Shown piece by piece: positions 213 through 11,765 of a stretch of 11,765 nucleotides of DNA. Position numbers and translations under genes: made by a program. The stretch covers positions 1 through 11,765 of the forward strand of contig PNBM01000281.1 in the NCBI GenBank assembly GCA_003135995.1, read 5' to 3'. Source of the DNA: Ignavibacteriota bacterium. Its GTDB lineage: Bacteria > Bacteroidota > Ignavibacteria > Tepidaquicellales > Tepidaquicellaceae. The notes beneath the pieces are model-generated. The model did not search any database. It saw nothing but the letters and a program-made list of their open reading frames with translations, and had not been told where the DNA came from. The stretch's first letter is position 1; the number at the start of each line of letters is the position of its first letter.

Positions 213-2180
213 ATGCAAAATTTAATCGATGATGTTATCCGCGAACTGGAAAAAGGAAATTACGTCGATGCGATAAAATATTGCGACCAGCTTATCGAAT
301 CATTTCCTGATAATTATATTATTTATGAAATAAGAGGTAATTGCATGCTGGAGACGGGTAACTTCATTGATGCAATTAAAAATTATGAGGAAGCAATAAA
401 AAAAATTGACCCTCAAAAAGAAAAGCAAAAAAACGATTTAGCCGCTTTGTTTAATAGAAAAGGATTTGCAAAAATAAAATTAAATGATTTTGAAAACGCT
501 ATAGAAGATTTTAAACAGGCAGAAAAAATCCGTCCCGAATTTCCAGAACTTTACAATAATTTTGCAAATGCATACCGTAATATAGAAGAGTATAAACTGG
601 CTTTAGACTATTGCGGTAGAGCAATAGCTCAGAAACCCGATTTTCCCGAAGTGTATAATAACAGGGGAAATATTTATTATATGCTCTCCAAAGAATCCGA
701 AGCAATAGACGATTATACCAAAGCTATTGAATTGAATCCGGATTATGCCGGTGCATATTTTAACAGGGGTACAACTTATTTTTATTTAAAGAATGATTAT
801 GATAAAGCAAAAGAAGATTGGGAGAAGGCTATTGAATTGAATCCGGATTTCAAAAAAGATTTATCGGAAAAATTAAAAGAAATCGAAAACAAAATAAATC
901 CTATAACTAAAGTTCCGCAGGTAATTTTGGAAACCGATTCTTCCAATAAACCTGAAGAGAAAACTGCTGAGCCGAAGGAAGAAATAAAGGTTGCGGAATT
1001 AATTACTGAACACATAAAAGAGACGGAAATGACCGCCCCGAAGGAAACACTCGAAGATTATATAAATCAAAATATCGCAGCAGAAGAAAAGAAAAAAGAT
1101 TCCGGAATGTTTGAAGAAACATCTTTGCCGGTCCCTGAAAAACCAGAAGAATCAAATGATAATGATTTTTTCGAAAAATCATTGAATTTTCACACGGAAT
1201 TAACCGAAAAATCAACTGAAGAGATTAACAGTGAAAATATCGATTTATTTAAAGATATGGATGATTACTTTAAAACTTTTGAAACGAAAAATAGTGAAAA
1301 CGAAATTGTTATTCCCGATTTAAATTTCAAAGATATTTTTACCGAAAACAAAGAGAAGGAAAGCGTTTATGATAGCCCGGTAACAGAAGAATTTACACGC
1401 CGGGATGAAAATATTATTCCGGAAGAGCTCAAACAATTGCATAAAGAGATCTCCGAAATTCCTGCACCGGCTATGAAAGATTCAGAGGTAAAAGATAAAA
1501 AAATTGAAAGCATTACTCAATCTGAAAAAGTTCCGGTACCGGATGCGATTAAACAAAAAGTAATTTCACCGGAAGAAAAAGAAAGCAATAAAAAACAAAA
1601 CCCCGTTTTAATATGGTCGTTGATAGTTTTAATTGTCATTATTGTCGGCTTCATTATTATATACCAGTCATTTTATAAAAACACAGGAAATGAAATAAAA
1701 GAAACTGCCCGGGTTGATTCTACTGTTACCAATCAGGGAAATCAGGAGAATTTATTGACGGACAGCGCTATGAATAAAGCCGGGTTAAATGAAGGAGTCA
1801 AATCAAAAGATACAACATTGGATGAAAATATTACGGAAAATAAAAACGAAGAAGTGTCCAAAGAAAACGCAAAAGAAGAAACAAAAGAAAATGTAAAAGA
1901 ACAGCCGGCAGATAATGTGAAACCTGTTACATCGCTTATAGAGGGCAGAACGGATTTGATATTGATTCACGAAGGTAATAATTATTTTATACAGGTGGGT
2001 TCATTTAAAGACAGGGAACCCGCTGAAACAAGAGTAACAAAATTACAAAACAGTAATATTAAATCCGGGATTAAAGAAGTTGATCTTGGTGATAAAGGAA
2101 AATTCTACAGGGTCAGGGTTGGGTCTTTTGATTCAAAGGAATCCGCTGTGTCTTATGCTCCGAAAATTGGAAAAGAATAG
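213..2180 (+). CDS. TPR-repeat membrane protein with periplasmic SPOR domain
   Basis: The product has 655 residues. Six TPR units fill residues 2-213, the last two ending in the same AIELNPD motif; they are 22 nt identical at DNA level (723-744 and 828-849), so recently duplicated or converted. An acidic, Glu/Lys-rich, probably disordered linker (about 215-460) leads to one membrane helix (463-487), a short linker and a C-terminal SPOR domain (about 590-655, with the paired strands YFIQVGSF and FYRVRVGSF). Inferred topology is TPRs in the cytoplasm and SPOR in the periplasm. SPOR domains are known to bind septal peptidoglycan lacking stem peptides; TPRs bind proteins. An upstream in-frame TTG at 141 would add 24 residues, but ATG at 213 starts the first TPR and is preferred. 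No clear Shine-Dalgarno is seen. First gene of the operon; its membrane/SPOR half resembles that of the fourth gene. Confidence 0.9.
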   Translation: MQNLIDDVIRELEKGNYVDAIKYCDQLIESFPDNYIIYEIRGNCMLETGNFIDAIKNYEEAIKKIDPQKEKQKNDLAALFNRKGFAKIKLNDFENAIEDFKQAEKIRPEFPELYNNFANAYRNIEEYKLALDYCGRAIAQKPDFPEVYNNRGNIYYMLSKESEAIDDYTKAIELNPDYAGAYFNRGTTYFYLKNDYDKAKEDWEKAIELNPDFKKDLSEKLKEIENKINPITKVPQVILETDSSNKPEEKTAEPKEEIKVAELITEHIKETEMTAPKETLEDYINQNIAAEEKKKDSGMFEETSLPVPEKPEESNDNDFFEKSLNFHTELTEKSTEEINSENIDLFKDMDDYFKTFETKNSENEIVIPDLNFKDIFTENKEKESVYDSPVTEEFTRRDENIIPEELKQLHKEISEIPAPAMKDSEVKDKKIESITQSEKVPVPDAIKQKVISPEEKESNKKQNPVLIWSLIVLIVIIVGFIIIYQSFYKNTGNEIKETARVDSTVTNQGNQENLLTDSAMNKAGLNEGVKSKDTTLDENITENKNEEVSKENAKEETKENVKEQPADNVKPVTSLIEGRTDLILIHEGNNYFIQVGSFKDREPAETRVTKLQNSNIKSGIKEVDLGDKGKFYRVRVGSFDSKESAVSYAPKIGKE

Positions 2181-2182
2181 TA

Positions 2183-2677
2183 ATGAACGCATTGCAGCAA
2201 ATAAATATAGAACTTCCCAAAGAAGAAAAATTCAGAATCCTGATTCCACAGGTAAAATCTTTGATTGAAGACGAAGATAATTTCATAGCAAATATATCTA
2301 ACATAACTTCTGCTATAAAATATACATTCGATGATATTTCATGGGTCGGATTTTATTTTATCGATAAATCGAATCCCGGACAACTTGTGCTTGGACCGTT
2401 TCAGGGTAAAGTAGCATGTACAAGAATCGCAATCGGAAAAGGTGTCTGCAGTGCATCGGTTTTGAAAAAAGAAACTATAGTCGTACCTGATGTCGAAAAA
2501 TTCCCGGGACATATTTATTGTGACCCTGACGCAAGGTCGGAAATCGTAATTCCTGTCATCAAAAATAATGATGTGATTGCCGTACTCGATATTGACAGCA
2601 ATAAATTGAATACATTTGACGATACGGATAAAAAAAAATTTGAAGTTCTTATAAAAAATATTTTATCTATTTTCTGA
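2183..2677 (+). CDS. msrC: Free methionine-(R)-sulfoxide reductase (GAF fold)
   Basis: The 164-residue product reduces free L-methionine-(R)-sulfoxide in the cytoplasm, an oxidative-damage repair reaction driven by thioredoxin-type reductants. The family signature is complete: WVGFYF (54-59), LVLGPFQGKVACTR, GVCSAS, FPGHIYCD, ARSEIVIP and AVLDIDS. Cys79, Cys89 and Cys113 show the same spacing as the three redox cysteines of E. coli YebR (84, 94, 118), the last being catalytic in that enzyme, so this should be an active enzyme and not merely a GAF sensor. Length is normal. The gene starts 2 nt after the stop of the TPR-SPOR gene and ends 2 nt before the HU-like gene, implying cotranscription and coupled translation. 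Why a repair enzyme sits between envelope/DNA-tether genes is not explained by the sequence. Confidence 0.93.
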   Translation: MNALQQINIELPKEEKFRILIPQVKSLIEDEDNFIANISNITSAIKYTFDDISWVGFYFIDKSNPGQLVLGPFQGKVACTRIAIGKGVCSASVLKKETIVVPDVEKFPGHIYCDPDARSEIVIPVIKNNDVIAVLDIDSNKLNTFDDTDKKKFEVLIKNILSIF

Positions 2678-2679
2678 TT

Positions 2680-2964
2680 ATGAACAAAGATAGCCTGATA
2701 AACAAAATATATGTAAAAAGTCCTTTTAACAAAAATCACAGCAAAAGTATTTTCAACAGAATTTTTGAATTAATAAAAGGTTCTGTAAAAGAAAATAACT
2801 TTTTTGAAATAGAAGAATTCGGCGAGTTCAGTGTTGAAAGACGCGAAATGAAGGTGATTGCAGATCCGGATAAGATGTCTGAAATTCTTCTTCCCCCTAA
2901 AGATAAAGTCGTTTTTAAACCTGCTGATAATATTATTAAAAGTGTAAATTTAGGTAATGACTAA
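2680..2964 (+). CDS. HU/IHF-like DNA-binding protein
   Basis: The 94-residue product fits the HU/IHF fold. The N-terminal helical pair is roughly residues 1-38, followed by the strand motif FEIEEFGEFSVERRE (42-56; compare the HU signature VxLxGFGxFxVRER). A DNA-binding-arm region diverges from the usual GRNPxTGE, and the ending KVVFKPADNIIKSVN corresponds to HU's AFKPGKALKEAVN. HU proteins act as dimers that bend DNA and organise the nucleoid. The altered arm suggests different DNA contacts from canonical HU. The last 8 nt overlap the start of the next gene, which itself begins with an HU-like domain, so the two could heterodimerise; that is inference. The ATG is 2 nt after the preceding stop and has no visible Shine-Dalgarno. 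Confidence 0.82.
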   Translation: MNKDSLINKIYVKSPFNKNHSKSIFNRIFELIKGSVKENNFFEIEEFGEFSVERREMKVIADPDKMSEILLPPKDKVVFKPADNIIKSVNLGND

Positions 2965-5476
2965 GGAACAATTAATAAAAAAGATTGCCCGGGAATATTC
3001 AGTAGATGAGATTGATGTTTCAAATTATTTTGAAAGCATTTTTGAAACGATAAATGCGGCTTTTATAAAGAATAAAAATGTAAATATATCCGAATTTGGC
3101 AAATTTGTATTAAGAACAAAGACCGGAACCGGAGGCATCAAAACAAAAACCATTTCGTTTTCACCCTCGAAAAAATTTGCGCTTGAAATAAATTACAATT
3201 TTAGTGACCTAGTTCCCGTTAAAATAAAAACTCTCGACGAAAAATCATTGCGTGAAGAATATTATGAACCGACAGATGCTGATGAGGTAATACTTATAGA
3301 ATCCGAAGGCGATGTAGTCGATAACGAAATTGACGAAAAAAATGATTTTCTCTTTTCACAATTATCCGAAAATTTAAAATCAAGATTTCTTAATGAACAC
3401 TTTGCAGATGATTTAATAAATAATGATACGCCCCGTGTAAAAACCGAAGTAATACCGGGAATTCCGGTCGGGGAAAAAGAAATTCCGGAAATTTCCGCCC
3501 CGGAACAATTAACCCGGGAACAGGAAGAAAATAAAATTGGAATCGAACCCGAAGATAAAAATATCTCATCTGAAGAAAATATTCCCGTTGTTTTAATTCC
3601 CGAAGAAGTTATTAACGGTGAAAATATTCCGGATACAATAATTCCGGAGGAAATAATAACCGAAAAAGGAGAAACGGAATTATCGGAGCCTGAACCGCTG
3701 ACAGTAAAATCAGATGATACCGTGCAGGAAGAAACTCAAAAGGAAGATTTTACGACATTCACAAGGCAGAAAGAAACATCATCAAAAGCTCAAACCGTAT
3801 TTTCAGATGCCGAAATGTTGTTAATTGAGTTGAAAAAAATTAAAGAAAAAGAAAAAGATAAAATTATTTACGATAAAATTGATGAAGAAAAGAAACAACA
3901 GGATATTATCGACGAACAGGATCCGGTACCTGTAATTTCGGATTGGGAAACGGTAAAATCTAAAGCGAAAATTAGGACGGAGGAAGAGAAGGCATTAGAA
4001 GAAGAGTTGGAAAGAATGCTCGAAGAACGCGAAAAAATTCTTACGGAAATTAAACAACTTGAATCCGATTCTCAAAAGATTATCAGAATCGAATCTTTAA
4101 TCAATGCGTTTTCTAAAACGTCAGATGATTTATTAAAAGTTAGTTCAAAACCGGTAAAGCCGAAAAAAGAATTTACAATAGAAGAAAACGTTAAAGCTCA
4201 TGATGAATCATTTGAAGATAAATTGAGAAGTTTATTGGAACCATCTGTGCCTGATGTTTCAGCCCCGCAAGATGTTTTCATTCAACCGGATGTTTCAGCT
4301 TCACAAGATGTTTTCGTCCCGCCTGTTGTAATCACGCCGCAGGATGTTTCGGATTTACAGGAGGAATCAACTCTACCGGATGTTTCAGCCCCGCCGGATT
4401 CTTTAAAGTCATTCGATATTTCCGATTTAAATTTACCACAGGATGTATTCATCGAAGAAAGTGAAGACGGGAAAAAGGATATTGAAAATGCAGAGATGAA
4501 AATATTCGATAAGTTGATTGAAGAACACTTTGCTTCAGAACCTCCGGAAATAAAACCCGACAGAAGTTTGGAATTACTCGAAGAACAATATGATAACTTA
4601 ATTAAACCTTCTGAGCAGGAACCGGTATTGTTTACTCCGGAAAAGCAAATGGAAAGTGTAATTCCCGAAGAACCCGAAGCAGAAATAGAATCATTCGAAG
4701 AGAAGAAAGAAGATTTGTCTCGATTCCTGAAACCTGATACGGGATTGGATTCGCTTAAAGAACAATTTGATGATTTGACTATTACAGAAAAGCCGGATGA
4801 AATTATAATTCCCGAACGGCTCGAAGATGCGTTCGTTAATATAGAACTTCCTGAAGAATTTAGCAAAGCTGAAAGAACATTTTTCGAAAAAGATAAAATT
4901 GAAAAAGAAAACGCGGTCAGAAATTATAATGATATTTTTAAATCGGTTGAGTCTTATAAACCGAAAGCCGTTCAACCGGCTAAAATAACTGAAGAACCTA
5001 AAAAAACACTGAAGAAAAAAAAATCTATGAAAAAACTTATTATCCCGATTATAATTCTGTTAATACTCGGAGTTATAATTATTGTAATGAGTAGACCAAA
5101 TCCGTCAGCGTTACAGGATGATGTACTTGTTACGACAGGAACAAATGAGAATAAGACGGATGCGAATAAGAACGAAAAAAATTCGGACGCAGAGTCAATT
5201 AAAACAAAAGATGTTCCTGCAGATGTAGATAAAATTATTTATGAAGATAATGGTGTTTACTTCAAACAAAATTCACTTGGAGTATTTATACAGGTAGGTA
5301 CTTATTTATCGGAGAAGGAAGCAAAAATAAAAGCTTTCTTGTTGAAAACTCAGAAATTCAATGCCGACGTCGAGAAAATTAGTTTGGGCAAAAATGATTT
5401 CAGGTATCGTGTGAAAATCGGACCTTATCCTGATCTCGATGCTGCGAAAGCATCGTTCGAAACAATGAAGAAATAA
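2957..5476 (+). CDS. HU/IHF-like head - acidic linker - TM - SPOR protein
   Basis: The product has 839 residues. Residues 1-90 resemble HU/IHF: helical pair 1-40, NVNISEFGKFVLRTKTG at 41-57, then an arm-like segment. About 600 acidic, low-complexity residues follow, including a probable coiled coil (about 335-385), four 12-residue repeats (433-480) and a recurring LxE[HQ][FY] motif. A basic patch (682-693) precedes one membrane helix (694-712). A SPOR domain closes the protein (about 770-839; GVFIQVGTY and FRYRVKIGPY). The positive-inside rule places the HU head in the cytoplasm and SPOR in the periplasm. DNA binding by the head and septal peptidoglycan binding by the tail are inferred from the families. 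From memory, HU-like domains joined to SPOR were noted in Bacteroidetes by comparative genomics with a proposed role in chromosome partitioning. The start overlaps the previous gene by 8 nt. Function here is untested. Confidence 0.88.
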   Translation: MTKEQLIKKIAREYSVDEIDVSNYFESIFETINAAFIKNKNVNISEFGKFVLRTKTGTGGIKTKTISFSPSKKFALEINYNFSDLVPVKIKTLDEKSLREEYYEPTDADEVILIESEGDVVDNEIDEKNDFLFSQLSENLKSRFLNEHFADDLINNDTPRVKTEVIPGIPVGEKEIPEISAPEQLTREQEENKIGIEPEDKNISSEENIPVVLIPEEVINGENIPDTIIPEEIITEKGETELSEPEPLTVKSDDTVQEETQKEDFTTFTRQKETSSKAQTVFSDAEMLLIELKKIKEKEKDKIIYDKIDEEKKQQDIIDEQDPVPVISDWETVKSKAKIRTEEEKALEEELERMLEEREKILTEIKQLESDSQKIIRIESLINAFSKTSDDLLKVSSKPVKPKKEFTIEENVKAHDESFEDKLRSLLEPSVPDVSAPQDVFIQPDVSASQDVFVPPVVITPQDVSDLQEESTLPDVSAPPDSLKSFDISDLNLPQDVFIEESEDGKKDIENAEMKIFDKLIEEHFASEPPEIKPDRSLELLEEQYDNLIKPSEQEPVLFTPEKQMESVIPEEPEAEIESFEEKKEDLSRFLKPDTGLDSLKEQFDDLTITEKPDEIIIPERLEDAFVNIELPEEFSKAERTFFEKDKIEKENAVRNYNDIFKSVESYKPKAVQPAKITEEPKKTLKKKKSMKKLIIPIIILLILGVIIIVMSRPNPSALQDDVLVTTGTNENKTDANKNEKNSDAESIKTKDVPADVDKIIYEDNGVYFKQNSLGVFIQVGTYLSEKEAKIKAFLLKTQKFNADVEKISLGKNDFRYRVKIGPYPDLDAAKASFETMKK
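4253..4396 (+). repeat. 36-bp in-frame tandem repeat coding 12-residue units
   Basis: Four 36-nt units (4253-4288, 4289-4324, 4325-4360, 4361-4396) encode DVSAPQDVFIQP, DVSASQDVFVPP, VVITPQDVSDLQ and EESTLPDVSAPP. The first two are clearly alike at DNA level and the others are decayed. Later pieces such as LPQDVFIEE (493-501) echo the unit. The repeats lie inside the disordered linker of the HU-SPOR protein and look like slippage-driven linker lengthening. Confidence 0.7.
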
Positions 5477-5513: not shown

Positions 5514-5560
5514 CACAACATTTGCGCTCTTTGCATCCCGACCCGTCGGGACATGTTGTG
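5514..5560. repeat. Nested palindrome between convergent genes, right copy of flanking element
   Basis: Outer arms CACAACAT (5514-5521) and ATGTTGTG (5553-5560) are perfectly complementary. They enclose the second copy of the intergenic element (5524-5551) with its own 7-bp hairpin TCCCGAC-CC-GTCGGGA (5536-5551). The structure lies between two genes ending towards each other, the HU-SPOR gene on + and lnt on -, where a bidirectional 3'-end structure would be expected. There is no flanking T-run on either strand of the kind a classic terminator has. Confidence 0.6.
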
Positions 5561-8730: not shown

Positions 8731-10647
8731 TTAAGCTATAAATTTCCCTCTCTTAGTATAATGCGTGTGCAATAACTTATGAGATAAATGACCGCATGGT
8801 CCGTCTGTGAAGAACTTTTCATAAATCATCTTTACGTATGGATTATTATGCGATTTCCTTAGTTCAAGTGAATCGTCTTCTGCATAAATAGCTTCTGCAC
8901 GTTTCGCTCTGATTTCAGGTGTAGTCGGAATCGGCTGACCGCCGCCGCCGATACATCCACCCGGACAAGCCATGAATTCTATAAAGTGACATTCACTGAA
9001 TTTTCCGCCTGCTTTTATATCTTCCATAATTTTTTTAGCGTTTGCCGTACCGTGTGCAATTGCAACTTTTAATGTCGCGCCCTTTAAGAAATCCCAGCTT
9101 GGTACTAACGGTTTCAAAATTTCCGGAACCGGACCAACTGCTGTTATAGGAAGCTCTACATATTTCACTCCTTCGAATCCACGTACAGGAATTATGTCTG
9201 CATGTGCAAAAATATCTTCAACTTTATTACCTGTTACAAATTCAATTACGGACCTTAAAGCTGCTTCCATAACTCCGCCTGTTGCGCCGAATATCAAACC
9301 TGCGCCTGATGCATCTCCGAACGGACTATCGAAATGTGATTTAGGCATTTCAGGTAAAAATATTCCAGCTTCTTTAATCATCTTTCCGAGTTCGCGAGTC
9401 GTCAAACCGAAATCTACATCTTTATATCCCGATGAATCCATTTCCGGCCTGTTGCATTCAAATTTCTTTGCTGAACACGGCATAACTGCAACCGATATAA
9501 TATCCTTCGGGTCTATGTTAGCTTGTTTTGCATAAAAAGTTTTTATGATTGAACCGAACATCTGCTGCGGTGATTTTGCAGAAGACATGTGTCCGAGATA
9601 TTCAGGATAAAAATGTTCAATATACTTTACCCAACCCGGTGAACAGGATGTAAACTGTGGTAATTTTACCGATGTGTCTTTATCAACTAATGCTTTCTTT
9701 AATCTTATAATTAATTCAGTGCCTTCTTCCATGATAGTAAGGTCAGCAGTGAAATTAGTATCGAATACTTTATCAAATCCGATTCTTCTAAGCGCTGTGT
9801 TCATTTCACCTGTCATCGAATGTCCTGCTTCCAGTCCGAAAAGCTCGCCAATAGCGGCTCTTGGAGATGGTGCTGTCTGAATTACAACGTGTTTCTTCGG
9901 ATCATCGATTGCTGCCCAGATTTCATCTGACGGGTCATTCGCATGTAAAGCTGCAGTCGGGCAACGGTTTATACATTGACCGCAATTAATGCAAATCACA
10001 TCCGCGAGAGGTTTTTCAAAAAATGTACTGATATGAGTTTTATCTCCTCTGTCAATTGCTTCGAGCACTCCAACTTCCTGTAAATCAATACAAGTTCTCA
10101 CGCACCTTTTGCAAAGCACGCATTTACTCATATCACGAATCACGGAATAAGAGGATTTATCCATTTCATATTTTGGTTTATCAACGTGACCGAATGTATA
10201 TCCATCAACTCCGTATTCATCAGCTAAAGTCTGCAATTCGCAATTTCCGTTTCTTATGCACGAATAACATTCACCATAATGTTCGCTGAGCATCAAATCG
10301 ATTACATGCCTTCTTGCTTTTCTTACAAGTGAGGTCGAGGTTTTAATTTTCAGCGGAGAAGTTATCGGGAATGCACAGGCGGCTTGAAGAGTTTTGAATC
10401 CTTCAACTTCCACAACGCAAACGCGGCAAACACCCGCAACACATAAATCATCGTGATGACATAAAGTCGGAATATGAATTTTATTTGAGCGGCACGCTTC
10501 TAAAATTGTAGTCCCTAATGGAACGGAAATTTTATCTCCGTTAATTTCAACCGATACGGTTCCGCCTATTGTGTTAAGGTCTGTTGGTTTTTCTACTTTG
10601 AATTCCTGCTGACTTACAGGGGCTCTTGAAGTTTTTTCTTTATTCAT
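8731..10647 (-). CDS. hydA: [FeFe] hydrogenase catalytic subunit, NAD(H)-linked type
   Basis: The 638-residue enzyme interconverts H2 with protons and electrons. In order: a plant-type [2Fe-2S] domain (C63, C74, C77, C91), a His-Cys [4Fe-4S] site (H123, C127, C130, C136), two [4Fe-4S] ferredoxin motifs (C176/C179/C182/C186 and C219/C222/C225/C229), then the H-cluster domain. Its signatures are L1 TSCSPGW (333-339), L2 MPCSAKKFE (389-397) and L3 FMACPGGCIGGGGQP (C561, C565). L1 has Ser where TSCCPxW is usual. The protein ends with the small-subunit-like HTHY segment, without the extra C-terminal [2Fe-2S] domain of Thermotoga-type HydA. About 28 extra residues precede the first ferredoxin domain. 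ATG overlaps the hydB stop by 4 nt (ATGA) and has a GGAG at 7 nt. It probably forms a soluble complex with HydB and a NuoE-like subunit; maturation genes are not in the window. Confidence 0.95.
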   Translation of the reverse strand: MNKEKTSRAPVSQQEFKVEKPTDLNTIGGTVSVEINGDKISVPLGTTILEACRSNKIHIPTLCHHDDLCVAGVCRVCVVEVEGFKTLQAACAFPITSPLKIKTSTSLVRKARRHVIDLMLSEHYGECYSCIRNGNCELQTLADEYGVDGYTFGHVDKPKYEMDKSSYSVIRDMSKCVLCKRCVRTCIDLQEVGVLEAIDRGDKTHISTFFEKPLADVICINCGQCINRCPTAALHANDPSDEIWAAIDDPKKHVVIQTAPSPRAAIGELFGLEAGHSMTGEMNTALRRIGFDKVFDTNFTADLTIMEEGTELIIRLKKALVDKDTSVKLPQFTSCSPGWVKYIEHFYPEYLGHMSSAKSPQQMFGSIIKTFYAKQANIDPKDIISVAVMPCSAKKFECNRPEMDSSGYKDVDFGLTTRELGKMIKEAGIFLPEMPKSHFDSPFGDASGAGLIFGATGGVMEAALRSVIEFVTGNKVEDIFAHADIIPVRGFEGVKYVELPITAVGPVPEILKPLVPSWDFLKGATLKVAIAHGTANAKKIMEDIKAGGKFSECHFIEFMACPGGCIGGGGQPIPTTPEIRAKRAEAIYAEDDSLELRKSHNNPYVKMIYEKFFTDGPCGHLSHKLLHTHYTKRGKFIA

Positions 10648-11765
10648 ATAGTAACTCCGTTTCCGCTTTTGTTTAATATTTCATCTTTAAAATTTTCTAA
10701 AATGCTTATAAATGGGTTTGGACTGGATTGACCAAGACCGCATTTGGAAGCAACCTGCATTGTTTTGCCTAAATCTTTTAACTTATTAATATATTCAAAT
10801 GTGAATTCACCGTTTTCAATCATCTCTACTCCTCTGAGCAATTTTTCATTACCTATTCTGCAGGGTGTGCATTGTCCGCAGGATTCTTCTACGAAGAACT
10901 CCATGAAATTCTTAAGAACATGCAGCATGCTGCGTTTGTTGTTGAATATCATAATCGAGCCGCCTGTACCAACATCTTCATAAGCAAGTGTTCTGTTGAA
11001 CTGTGATTCAGGAAGACAAACGCCTGATGCACCGCCGATTTGCACGGCTTTGGTATTTTCGGCTTTAACAAGTTTTAATACTTCTTTAATAGTGGTTCCC
11101 CAGGGAAGTTCATATACGCCGGGTTTGCCGCAATCTCCTGAAACGGAAAATAACTTTGAACCGCTGGATTTATCTGTTCCGAATTTTGAAAACCAATCAC
11201 TGCCCTTTATTAATATATGCGGTACTGATGCTAATGTTTCTACATTATTGACCGATGTCGGTCTGCCGTTGTAACCTGTATTTACAGGGTATGGAGGTCT
11301 GTTCCTTGATTCACCCCGGTTAACTTCGAGTGATTCAATCAAAGCTGTTTCTTCACCACATACATACGCTCCTGCGCCAAGCATTATTCTGATATCAAAA
11401 TTAAAATCTTTATGACCGAGAATATTTTTCCCGAGCAAATTATCTTCTCTCATTTGTTCGAGATATGTTTCCAGAGACTTCAGCATATATTCATACTCAC
11501 CTCTCAGGTAAACTATACCTTCTTTTGCACCAATCGTATATCCGCCGATTACCATTCCATCGAATACTAATTCAGGATATTCAAGAAGCAAAACCCTGTC
11601 TTTAAATGTGCCGGGTTCGCCTTCATCTGCATTACAAACTAAAAACTTTTCTTCAGCAGTTGCAGCAGCCGTAAGCATCCATTTTGTTGCTGTCGGGAAT
11701 CCTGCGCCGCCTCTGCCTTTTAAACCGGAATTCTTTACTTCAAACAGAATATCTTCCCTGCTGAG
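10644..11765 (-). CDS. hydB: NuoF-like NADH-binding hydrogenase subunit, 5' end beyond window
   Basis: The last 373 residues are in the window; the frame is open to the right edge, so the first internal ATG at 11678 is not the start. Visible motifs are the FMN/NAD(H) glycine-rich GRGGAGFPTATKW at the edge, CNADEGEPGTFKDR, GAGAYVCGEETALIESLE, a SLBB-like region, and the [4Fe-4S] site CGQCTPC plus a later Cys (C267, C270, C273, C313 counted from that ATG). The subunit should pass electrons between NAD(H) and HydA. It ends about 30 residues after the last cluster cysteine, so it lacks the C-terminal two-[4Fe-4S] ferredoxin domain of Thermotoga-type HydB and ends like NuoF. A 4-nt overlap with hydA shows translational coupling and argues against a complex I nuoF. 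Any N-terminal [2Fe-2S] domain lies outside the window. Confidence 0.93.
   Translation of the reverse strand, partial: LSREDILFEVKNSGLKGRGGAGFPTATKWMLTAAATAEEKFLVCNADEGEPGTFKDRVLLLEYPELVFDGMVIGGYTIGAKEGIVYLRGEYEYMLKSLETYLEQMREDNLLGKNILGHKDFNFDIRIMLGAGAYVCGEETALIESLEVNRGESRNRPPYPVNTGYNGRPTSVNNVETLASVPHILIKGSDWFSKFGTDKSSGSKLFSVSGDCGKPGVYELPWGTTIKEVLKLVKAENTKAVQIGGASGVCLPESQFNRTLAYEDVGTGGSIMIFNNKRSMLHVLKNFMEFFVEESCGQCTPCRIGNEKLLRGVEMIENGEFTFEYINKLKDLGKTMQVASKCGLGQSSPNPFISILENFKDEILNKSGNGVTI
10655..10659 (-). promoter_or_regulatory. Shine-Dalgarno of hydA (CGGAG)
   Basis: CGGAG ends 7 nt before the hydA ATG, inside the 3' end of hydB. It stands out because most other starts in the window have no recognisable Shine-Dalgarno, and it fixes the hydA start. 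Confidence 0.65.

Follow-up and report, generated by a model that had tools for sequence, protein, structure and literature searches.

Gene content of the locus

The window, i.e. the whole stretch of 11,765 nucleotides that was analysed, carries a row of four tightly packed genes encoding, in this order, a TPR-TM-SPOR protein (hereafter TPR-SPOR), a GAF-domain protein, a small HU protein (HU1) and a large protein (HU2-SPOR) in which a second HU domain (HU2) is followed by a linker, a membrane helix (TM) and a SPOR domain. The successive gaps are of 2, 2 and -8 bases, the stop of HU1 and the start of HU2 overlapping by 8 bases. The features referred to below are as follows.

213..2180, + strand: TPR-TM-SPOR protein
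1398..1466, + strand: motif D (IIPEELKQLHKEI) in the cytosolic linker of TPR-SPOR
2183..2677, + strand: GAF-domain protein, member of the four-gene row
2680..2964, + strand: HU1, 94-aa partner HU protein (PF00216, 62.7 bits)
2957..5476, + strand: HU2-linker-TM-SPOR protein, 839 aa
2957..3196, + strand: HU2 head, residues 1-80, with an arm of 17 aa (ordinary HU: 28)
3233..5014, + strand: acidic linker, residues 93-686, 594 aa, net charge -83
3980..4132, + strand: predicted long helix inside the linker, residues 342-392 (confident only for 341-370)
5018..5089, + strand: membrane helix, residues 688-711
5279..5470, + strand: SPOR domain, residues 775-838, with the conserved Gln kept

The TPR-SPOR open reading frame begins at 141 with a TTG, but translation more probably begins from the ATG at 213. 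The GAF-domain protein resembles free-methionine-R-sulfoxide reductase. A perfect palindrome, TCCCGACNNGTCGGGA, flanks the row on both sides (96-111 before it and 5536-5551 after it); since it occurs at 46 places of the genome, against none for the backward-read control, it is a dispersed element that may be terminator- or REP-like. On the minus strand, the region 8731-11678 contains two ORFs that resemble, by reading only, the large subunit of an iron-only hydrogenase and a NuoF-like subunit. No part of the window matched Rfam at the gathering score.

Anatomy of the HU2-SPOR protein

An earlier note on this DNA had read in the 839-aa product an HU/IHF-like N-terminus, about 600 acidic residues, one membrane helix with a basic cytoplasmic flank and a C-terminal SPOR domain, and all four were recovered here. 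The HU2 head has an HU fold, which the note had made a turning point for residues 1-90, together with a PF00216 match above cut-off, a match also found for HU1; the C-terminal domain likewise combines a SPOR fold with a PF05036 match above cut-off. Between them, the acidic stretch amounts to the 594 aa listed above, and the basic residues that precede the single membrane helix point to an N-in topology, with head and linker in the cytosol. The protein gave no PHROGs match at E <= 0.001.

The linker also displays short repeats at 4253-4313 (18-base unit) and, at residues 536-607, repeats of the type LELLEEQYDNL / LDSLKEQFDDL that were recognized by eye. In two relatives (L040, 5295-7836; L044, 8635-11383), the HU2-SPOR frame is interrupted between head and tail, which may be an assembly error or real.

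HU1 and HU2 occur as a pair

Besides the window, 40 regions (39 from relatives and one from its own genome) and 18 further regions were covered. Among relatives, this gave 36 HU2 loci: 25 of family f1 (window included), nine of family f2, L074, which belongs to the same class, and L139. HU1 lies directly upstream of HU2 or is fused to it in all 36. In 31 of these it is a separate gene just upstream, at a distance of -8 to +34 bases and with an overlap in 16 of the 31, while the remaining five (L049, L052, L056, L057 and L139) encode an HU1-HU2 fusion. Genera g16, g13 and g9 have fused forms, as does one phylum group. The same arrangement was found in the best 30 PF18175 places of 118 phylum genomes, where HU1 is adjacent or fused in 30 out of 30 (11 separate, 19 fused). 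In the 11 split loci, HU2 opens the protein and a small HU1 ORF is found directly upstream in every case; in the 19 fused ones an HU1-sized stretch precedes HU2, which begins at residue 56-72 in 18 (one of the fused loci, L089, was judged from its 317-aa frame). A PF18174 match was confirmed in both fused phylum proteins that were scanned (L143 and L147). Judged from the Pfam names and record titles, the fused group would belong to Bacteroidia and the phylum would be Bacteroidota. Two small HU1 proteins were also scanned, L144 and L145; the PF00216 profile aligned with them only from position 22, which means that both lack the first helix.

The rest of the protein is less constant, as 11 of the 36 HU2 proteins among relatives have neither membrane helix nor SPOR domain, so that tethering is not what stays constant here. 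Pairs lacking both were seen at L058, L059 and L060 (genus g2), L061, L062, L053, L056 and L139; SPOR-less HU2 proteins are of 153-168 aa, except for L053 (271 aa) and the fused forms (260-265 aa). A search with the single protein over further genome contigs revealed no relative, and another scan of genome contigs gave two loci, in MAGs titled Ignavibacteriae bacterium and Bacteroidetes bacterium. The AF2 model of a natural fused HU1-HU2-D protein (P0022) had a pLDDT of 34, too low to be of use.

Sequence relationships of the two heads are in line with this pairing. In a tree of 119 heads (55 HU2, 57 HU1 and seven ordinary HU) built on as few as 94 columns, a branch with a support of 75 sets off the 55 HU2 rows, and a single clade of the 57 HU1 rows is merely not rejected (p-AU 0.61). 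The HU1 versus HU2 label requires one change on this tree, as compared to a minimum of 30 when labels were shuffled. Two HU2 rows were omitted from the tree and from the arm and charge comparisons below, one with an unknown residue (L055) and one with a wrong ORF (L061), and the phylum was represented for heads and charges by 8 of the 11 split and 14 of the 19 fused loci. Judged from pairing and tree, the HU2 head is probably one half of an HU1:HU2 heterodimer rather than an HU homodimer. Neither window head matched PF18174 or PF18175 at E <= 1, and PF18175 had no match at E <= 0.01 in the genome of the window. Given the pairing and the one split on the tree, the window genes would most simply be the HU-CCDC81 pair in split form, having diverged beyond the reach of these two profiles.

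Erosion of the DNA-contact features

In one study of HU/IHF proteins (PMC5683647), the HU arms are described as required for DNA binding, good alignment is stated for no more than about 60% of the HU/IHF proteins of Bacteroidetes, and one clade is reported to have long, Glu-rich C-termini. Ordinary HUs encoded in the same genomes as the pairs (n=5) have arms of 28 residues with a net charge of +8 to +9 and an NPxTG tip. In the window, the HU1 arm keeps this length with a net charge of 0, while that of HU2 is reduced to 17 residues, i.e. 11 fewer, with a net charge of +4. Mean length of the HU2 arm is 15.5 residues in f1 (23 rows) and 16.6 in f2 (9 rows). The NPxTG tip was found in one of 112 HU1/HU2 heads (HU1 of L074) versus six of seven ordinary HUs, and in neither of the window heads.

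Net charge, a crude and sequence-only measure that differs from surface charge, is +6 for the window HU1+HU2 pair versus +28 to +36 for the homodimers of five of the seven ordinary HU rows. Pairs of f1 average +11.1 (range 2 to 23; 23 pairs), the L074 pair has +12, f2 pairs average -7.0 (9 pairs), and in the phylum the means are -10.5 for the split-gene group and -3.8 for the fused-gene group. The most basic pairs of f1 are the SPOR-less ones of genus g2 (L058-L060), with +21 to +23, and these might bind DNA even if anchored pairs do not; the charge difference between anchored and soluble f1 pairs has a p of 0.016 but is given no weight here, since the rows are related and L053 (271-aa ORF, no membrane helix) was counted as anchored. 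HU1 of the window matches a PHROG annotated as 'DNA binding protein'. For the family as a whole, as distinct from the mildly basic lineage of the window, canonical HU-type DNA wrapping appears unlikely from these sequences.

The earlier note had taken the head to be a DNA tether and had named loss of the DNA-contact surface as a point that would speak against it. This claim holds in part: the head keeps an HU fold and the window pair is still mildly basic, but the arm is short, its NPxTG tip is gone and the charge is low; in addition, the partner HU1 had been missed, and the 11 HU2 proteins without TM and SPOR have no anchor.

A peptide that changes host within the locus

Alignment A1 (26 rows of linkers) revealed a short peptide, motif D, with a consensus of roughly IIPxxLxxLHxEI in which LH is invariant. 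In the genome of the window, it was found only at 1398..1466, in TPR-SPOR. In the 12 loci with an upstream TPR-SPOR gene (the window among them; the contigs of L045 and L046 stop short of the TPR part), motif D occurs in TPR-SPOR in all 12 and in the HU2 protein in none. In the 22 loci where no TPR-SPOR was seen (contig ends hide the upstream region in L048, L053 and L060), the strict pattern occurs in the HU2 protein in 19, and the other three display variants recognized by eye: LNDEI (L053), LHNDI (L062) and LHNLI (L068). L139 has the variant LHREI. The motif was spotted by eye in the very set used for these counts; its expected numbers in shuffled linkers are 0.1 of 12 and 0.3 of 34. In SPOR-less HU2 proteins, motif D is located near the C-terminus; genus g16 is an exception, having it in TPR-SPOR.

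A profile derived from A1 gave matches at E <= 0.001 in 37 of the 44 genomes of the order, at a single place in 36 of them and at four places on two contigs in G004. As judged by contig, position and frame length, these places correspond to the HU2 or TPR-SPOR protein of the locus, except for two in a 226-aa frame on contig C485 of G004. Because the 26 sequences used to build the profile match it by construction, the weight rests on the absence of other bearers of motif D. Of the seven genomes below threshold, four (G008, G011, G014 and G026) have motif D or a variant by eye or pattern, and the other three (G002, G009 and G012) have no HU2 in the regions read. Motif D was absent from 30 phylum proteins, the sole pattern match (L094) being inside an HU helix, and it cannot therefore explain the phylum-wide family.

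This distribution indicates that HU1, HU2 and motif D travel together in the order, whereas the HU2 anchor and SPOR come and go. Since HU2 and TPR-SPOR never both bear motif D at one locus, their genes, together with that of HU1, look like one system from sequence.

Two candidates were considered for motif D and set aside. Mimicry of the FtsZ C-terminal peptide was discarded after inspection of 14 FtsZ tails (out of 29 genomes with a match), of which 10 end in KPAFLRRQMD and the rest are close to it, none being D-like. The GAF protein is unlikely as a partner, as nine f2 loci with motif D or a variant in HU2 have no GAF neighbour. A second peptide common to both linkers, [YF]x[DE][IVLY]F (YNDIF at residue 657 of the window protein), was observed in 20 of 34 HU2 and 6 of 12 TPR-SPOR linkers, versus 1.3 and 0.3 expected.

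The SPOR domains

Binding to denuded septal glycan is established for the SPOR family. The window domain keeps the conserved Gln (FIQVGTY), which is present in 12 of 12 TPR-SPOR and 23 of 24 HU2-SPOR domains aligned (Glu in L039), so that the peptidoglycan end of the link proposed in the earlier note is sustained, as far as fold and sequence predict. This Gln contacts glycan in RlpA, according to PMC6895207.

SPOR matches at E <= 0.001 number five in the genome of the window, two of which are at the locus. Genomes with a SPOR-less HU2 and no TPR-SPOR at the locus have none (G001), one (G016, G011 and G008) or two (G014), which gives the impression of a SPOR system reduced as a whole in these genomes. 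Among 22 other genomes searched, 20 have three to five, the exceptions being G009 and G012 with one each, in which no HU2 was found. TPR-SPOR has a weak match to TIGR02223 (FtsN; 33 bits for a cut-off of 107.65), and HU2-SPOR has none at E <= 1.

The SPOR domain of TPR-SPOR has a mean identity of 0.38 to those of f1 HU2-SPOR proteins without a TPR neighbour, and of 0.26 to that of its neighbouring HU2-SPOR. The tree branch uniting it with the former has a support of 72/82, with long branches meeting, and the opposite grouping, in which TPR-SPOR joins the HU2-SPOR domains beside it, is not rejected (p-AU 0.15). An origin of TPR-SPOR by duplication of HU2-SPOR and exchange of the head is thus only suggested.

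Proposed function and alternatives

We would give roughly even chances to the proposal that HU2-SPOR and HU1 form a heterodimeric HU scaffold for docking, which SPOR would position at the division site. The product of 2957-5476 would be the membrane-anchored subunit of a two-part head: its periplasmic SPOR domain would bind denuded septal glycan and place the protein at constricting septa, while the membrane helix and the flexible acidic linker would display in the cytosol a putative HU1:HU2 heterodimer that keeps the fold without most DNA-gripping features. Head and short linker peptides would then serve as a protein docking platform, TPR-SPOR being a second arm of the same system that bears the shared docking peptide, motif D. 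A more specific and rather doubtful extension is that the HU1:HU2 head itself binds IIPxxLxxLHxEI, in cis in HU2 or in trans in TPR-SPOR, septal SPOR proteins being clamped from the cytosolic side.

Possible but less probable is the reading of the earlier note, a DNA tether: DNA binding by the HU head, by itself or together with HU1, would keep the nucleoid or one chromosomal site at the septal wall. It can draw on the HU fold, on the basic HU2 arm and +6 pair of the window, on the f1 pairs, which are more basic on average, above all those of g2, on the PHROG annotation of HU1 and on a chromosome-partition role that was reportedly predicted for Bacteroidetes. It has against it the lost arm tip, an HU2 arm 11 residues shorter in a fold whose arms are required for DNA binding according to PMC5683647, and mean pair charges that are negative in f2 and in both phylum groups. 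The scaffold is favoured over the DNA tether on two grounds: what stays constant is the HU pair with a docking peptide, and the DNA arm tip is lost. Improbable is an FtsN- or DamX-like divisome activator, whose cytosolic part would bind a divisome protein and whose outer part would stimulate septal synthesis, HU being a mere dimeric adaptor: the N-in single-pass topology, the weak FtsN match of TPR-SPOR and the five SPOR matches of the genome, two of them at the locus, would fit, but HU2-SPOR itself has no such match, TM and SPOR are absent from the HU2 protein at 11 of the 36 loci, and the 14 FtsZ tails are unlike motif D. Finally, HU1 and HU2 are separate genes in the window and could act independently, as neighbours in a gene row and nothing more, with HU2-SPOR as a homodimer; adjacency or fusion at every HU2 locus read, fusions in g16, g13, g9 and a phylum group, and the single HU1/HU2 split on the tree make this very improbable.

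Relation to known systems

HU-SPOR proteins of the phylum are already known, from the Pfam names and from Burroughs et al. 2017 (Cell Cycle), who reportedly described them and predicted the above partition role. This agrees with the statement in the earlier note that Bacteroidetes HU-SPOR fusions had been described computationally. No paper on HU-SPOR proteins was among the matches listed in the literature searched, most subscription papers being outside its reach. Within that scope, no description was seen of the two-gene form and its linker of 594 aa, of the erosion of the DNA surface or of the peptide that changes host. HU-SPOR proteins are widespread in the phylum and the idea reported for them in print is a DNA-to-wall link; with the partner being the adjacent gene and the head mostly stripped of what HU uses to hold DNA, the choice between tether and scaffold becomes testable. 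Motif D also offers a concrete way to search for what a septal wall protein binds in the cytosol, in bacteria whose division has been little studied.

The closest known proteins are HU-CCDC81_bac_1/_bac_2-SPOR (PF18174, PF18175), which have the same order of HU1, HU2, TM and SPOR, and whose HU2 heads share one side of the tree with that of the window. The window differs from them by its two genes, by motif D and by its linker, which at 594 aa exceeds the 306-478 aa of the entire fused HU-CCDC81_bac-type proteins examined. With FtsN, DedD, DamX and RlpA, HU2-SPOR has the SPOR fold and conserved Gln in common, and with FtsN and DamX also an N-in single-pass topology; unlike them, it has an HU head and a long acidic cytosolic linker, and it matches no FtsN family. 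Bacterial HU/IHF (PF00216) is matched by both window heads, and its fold by HU2, but the pair is without NPxTG tip and has a short HU2 arm, a low charge and a membrane anchor.

In eukaryotic CCDC81, after which Pfam names two HU models, HU domains are paired, as the Pfam names also have it, and a SPOR domain is not known. Similarity of the window heads to HU-CCDC81_euk_1 is only sub-threshold (15.2 bits for HU2 and 17.9 for HU1, with a cut-off of 26.1). One study lists CCDC81b among the microtubule inner proteins of Tetrahymena axonemes (PMC11961760), which makes CCDC81 a precedent for HU pairs in protein assembly, away from DNA. If an HU heterodimer has indeed been turned into a peptide-docking module in the window, it would be a bacterial counterpart of this non-DNA role of CCDC81 HU pairs.
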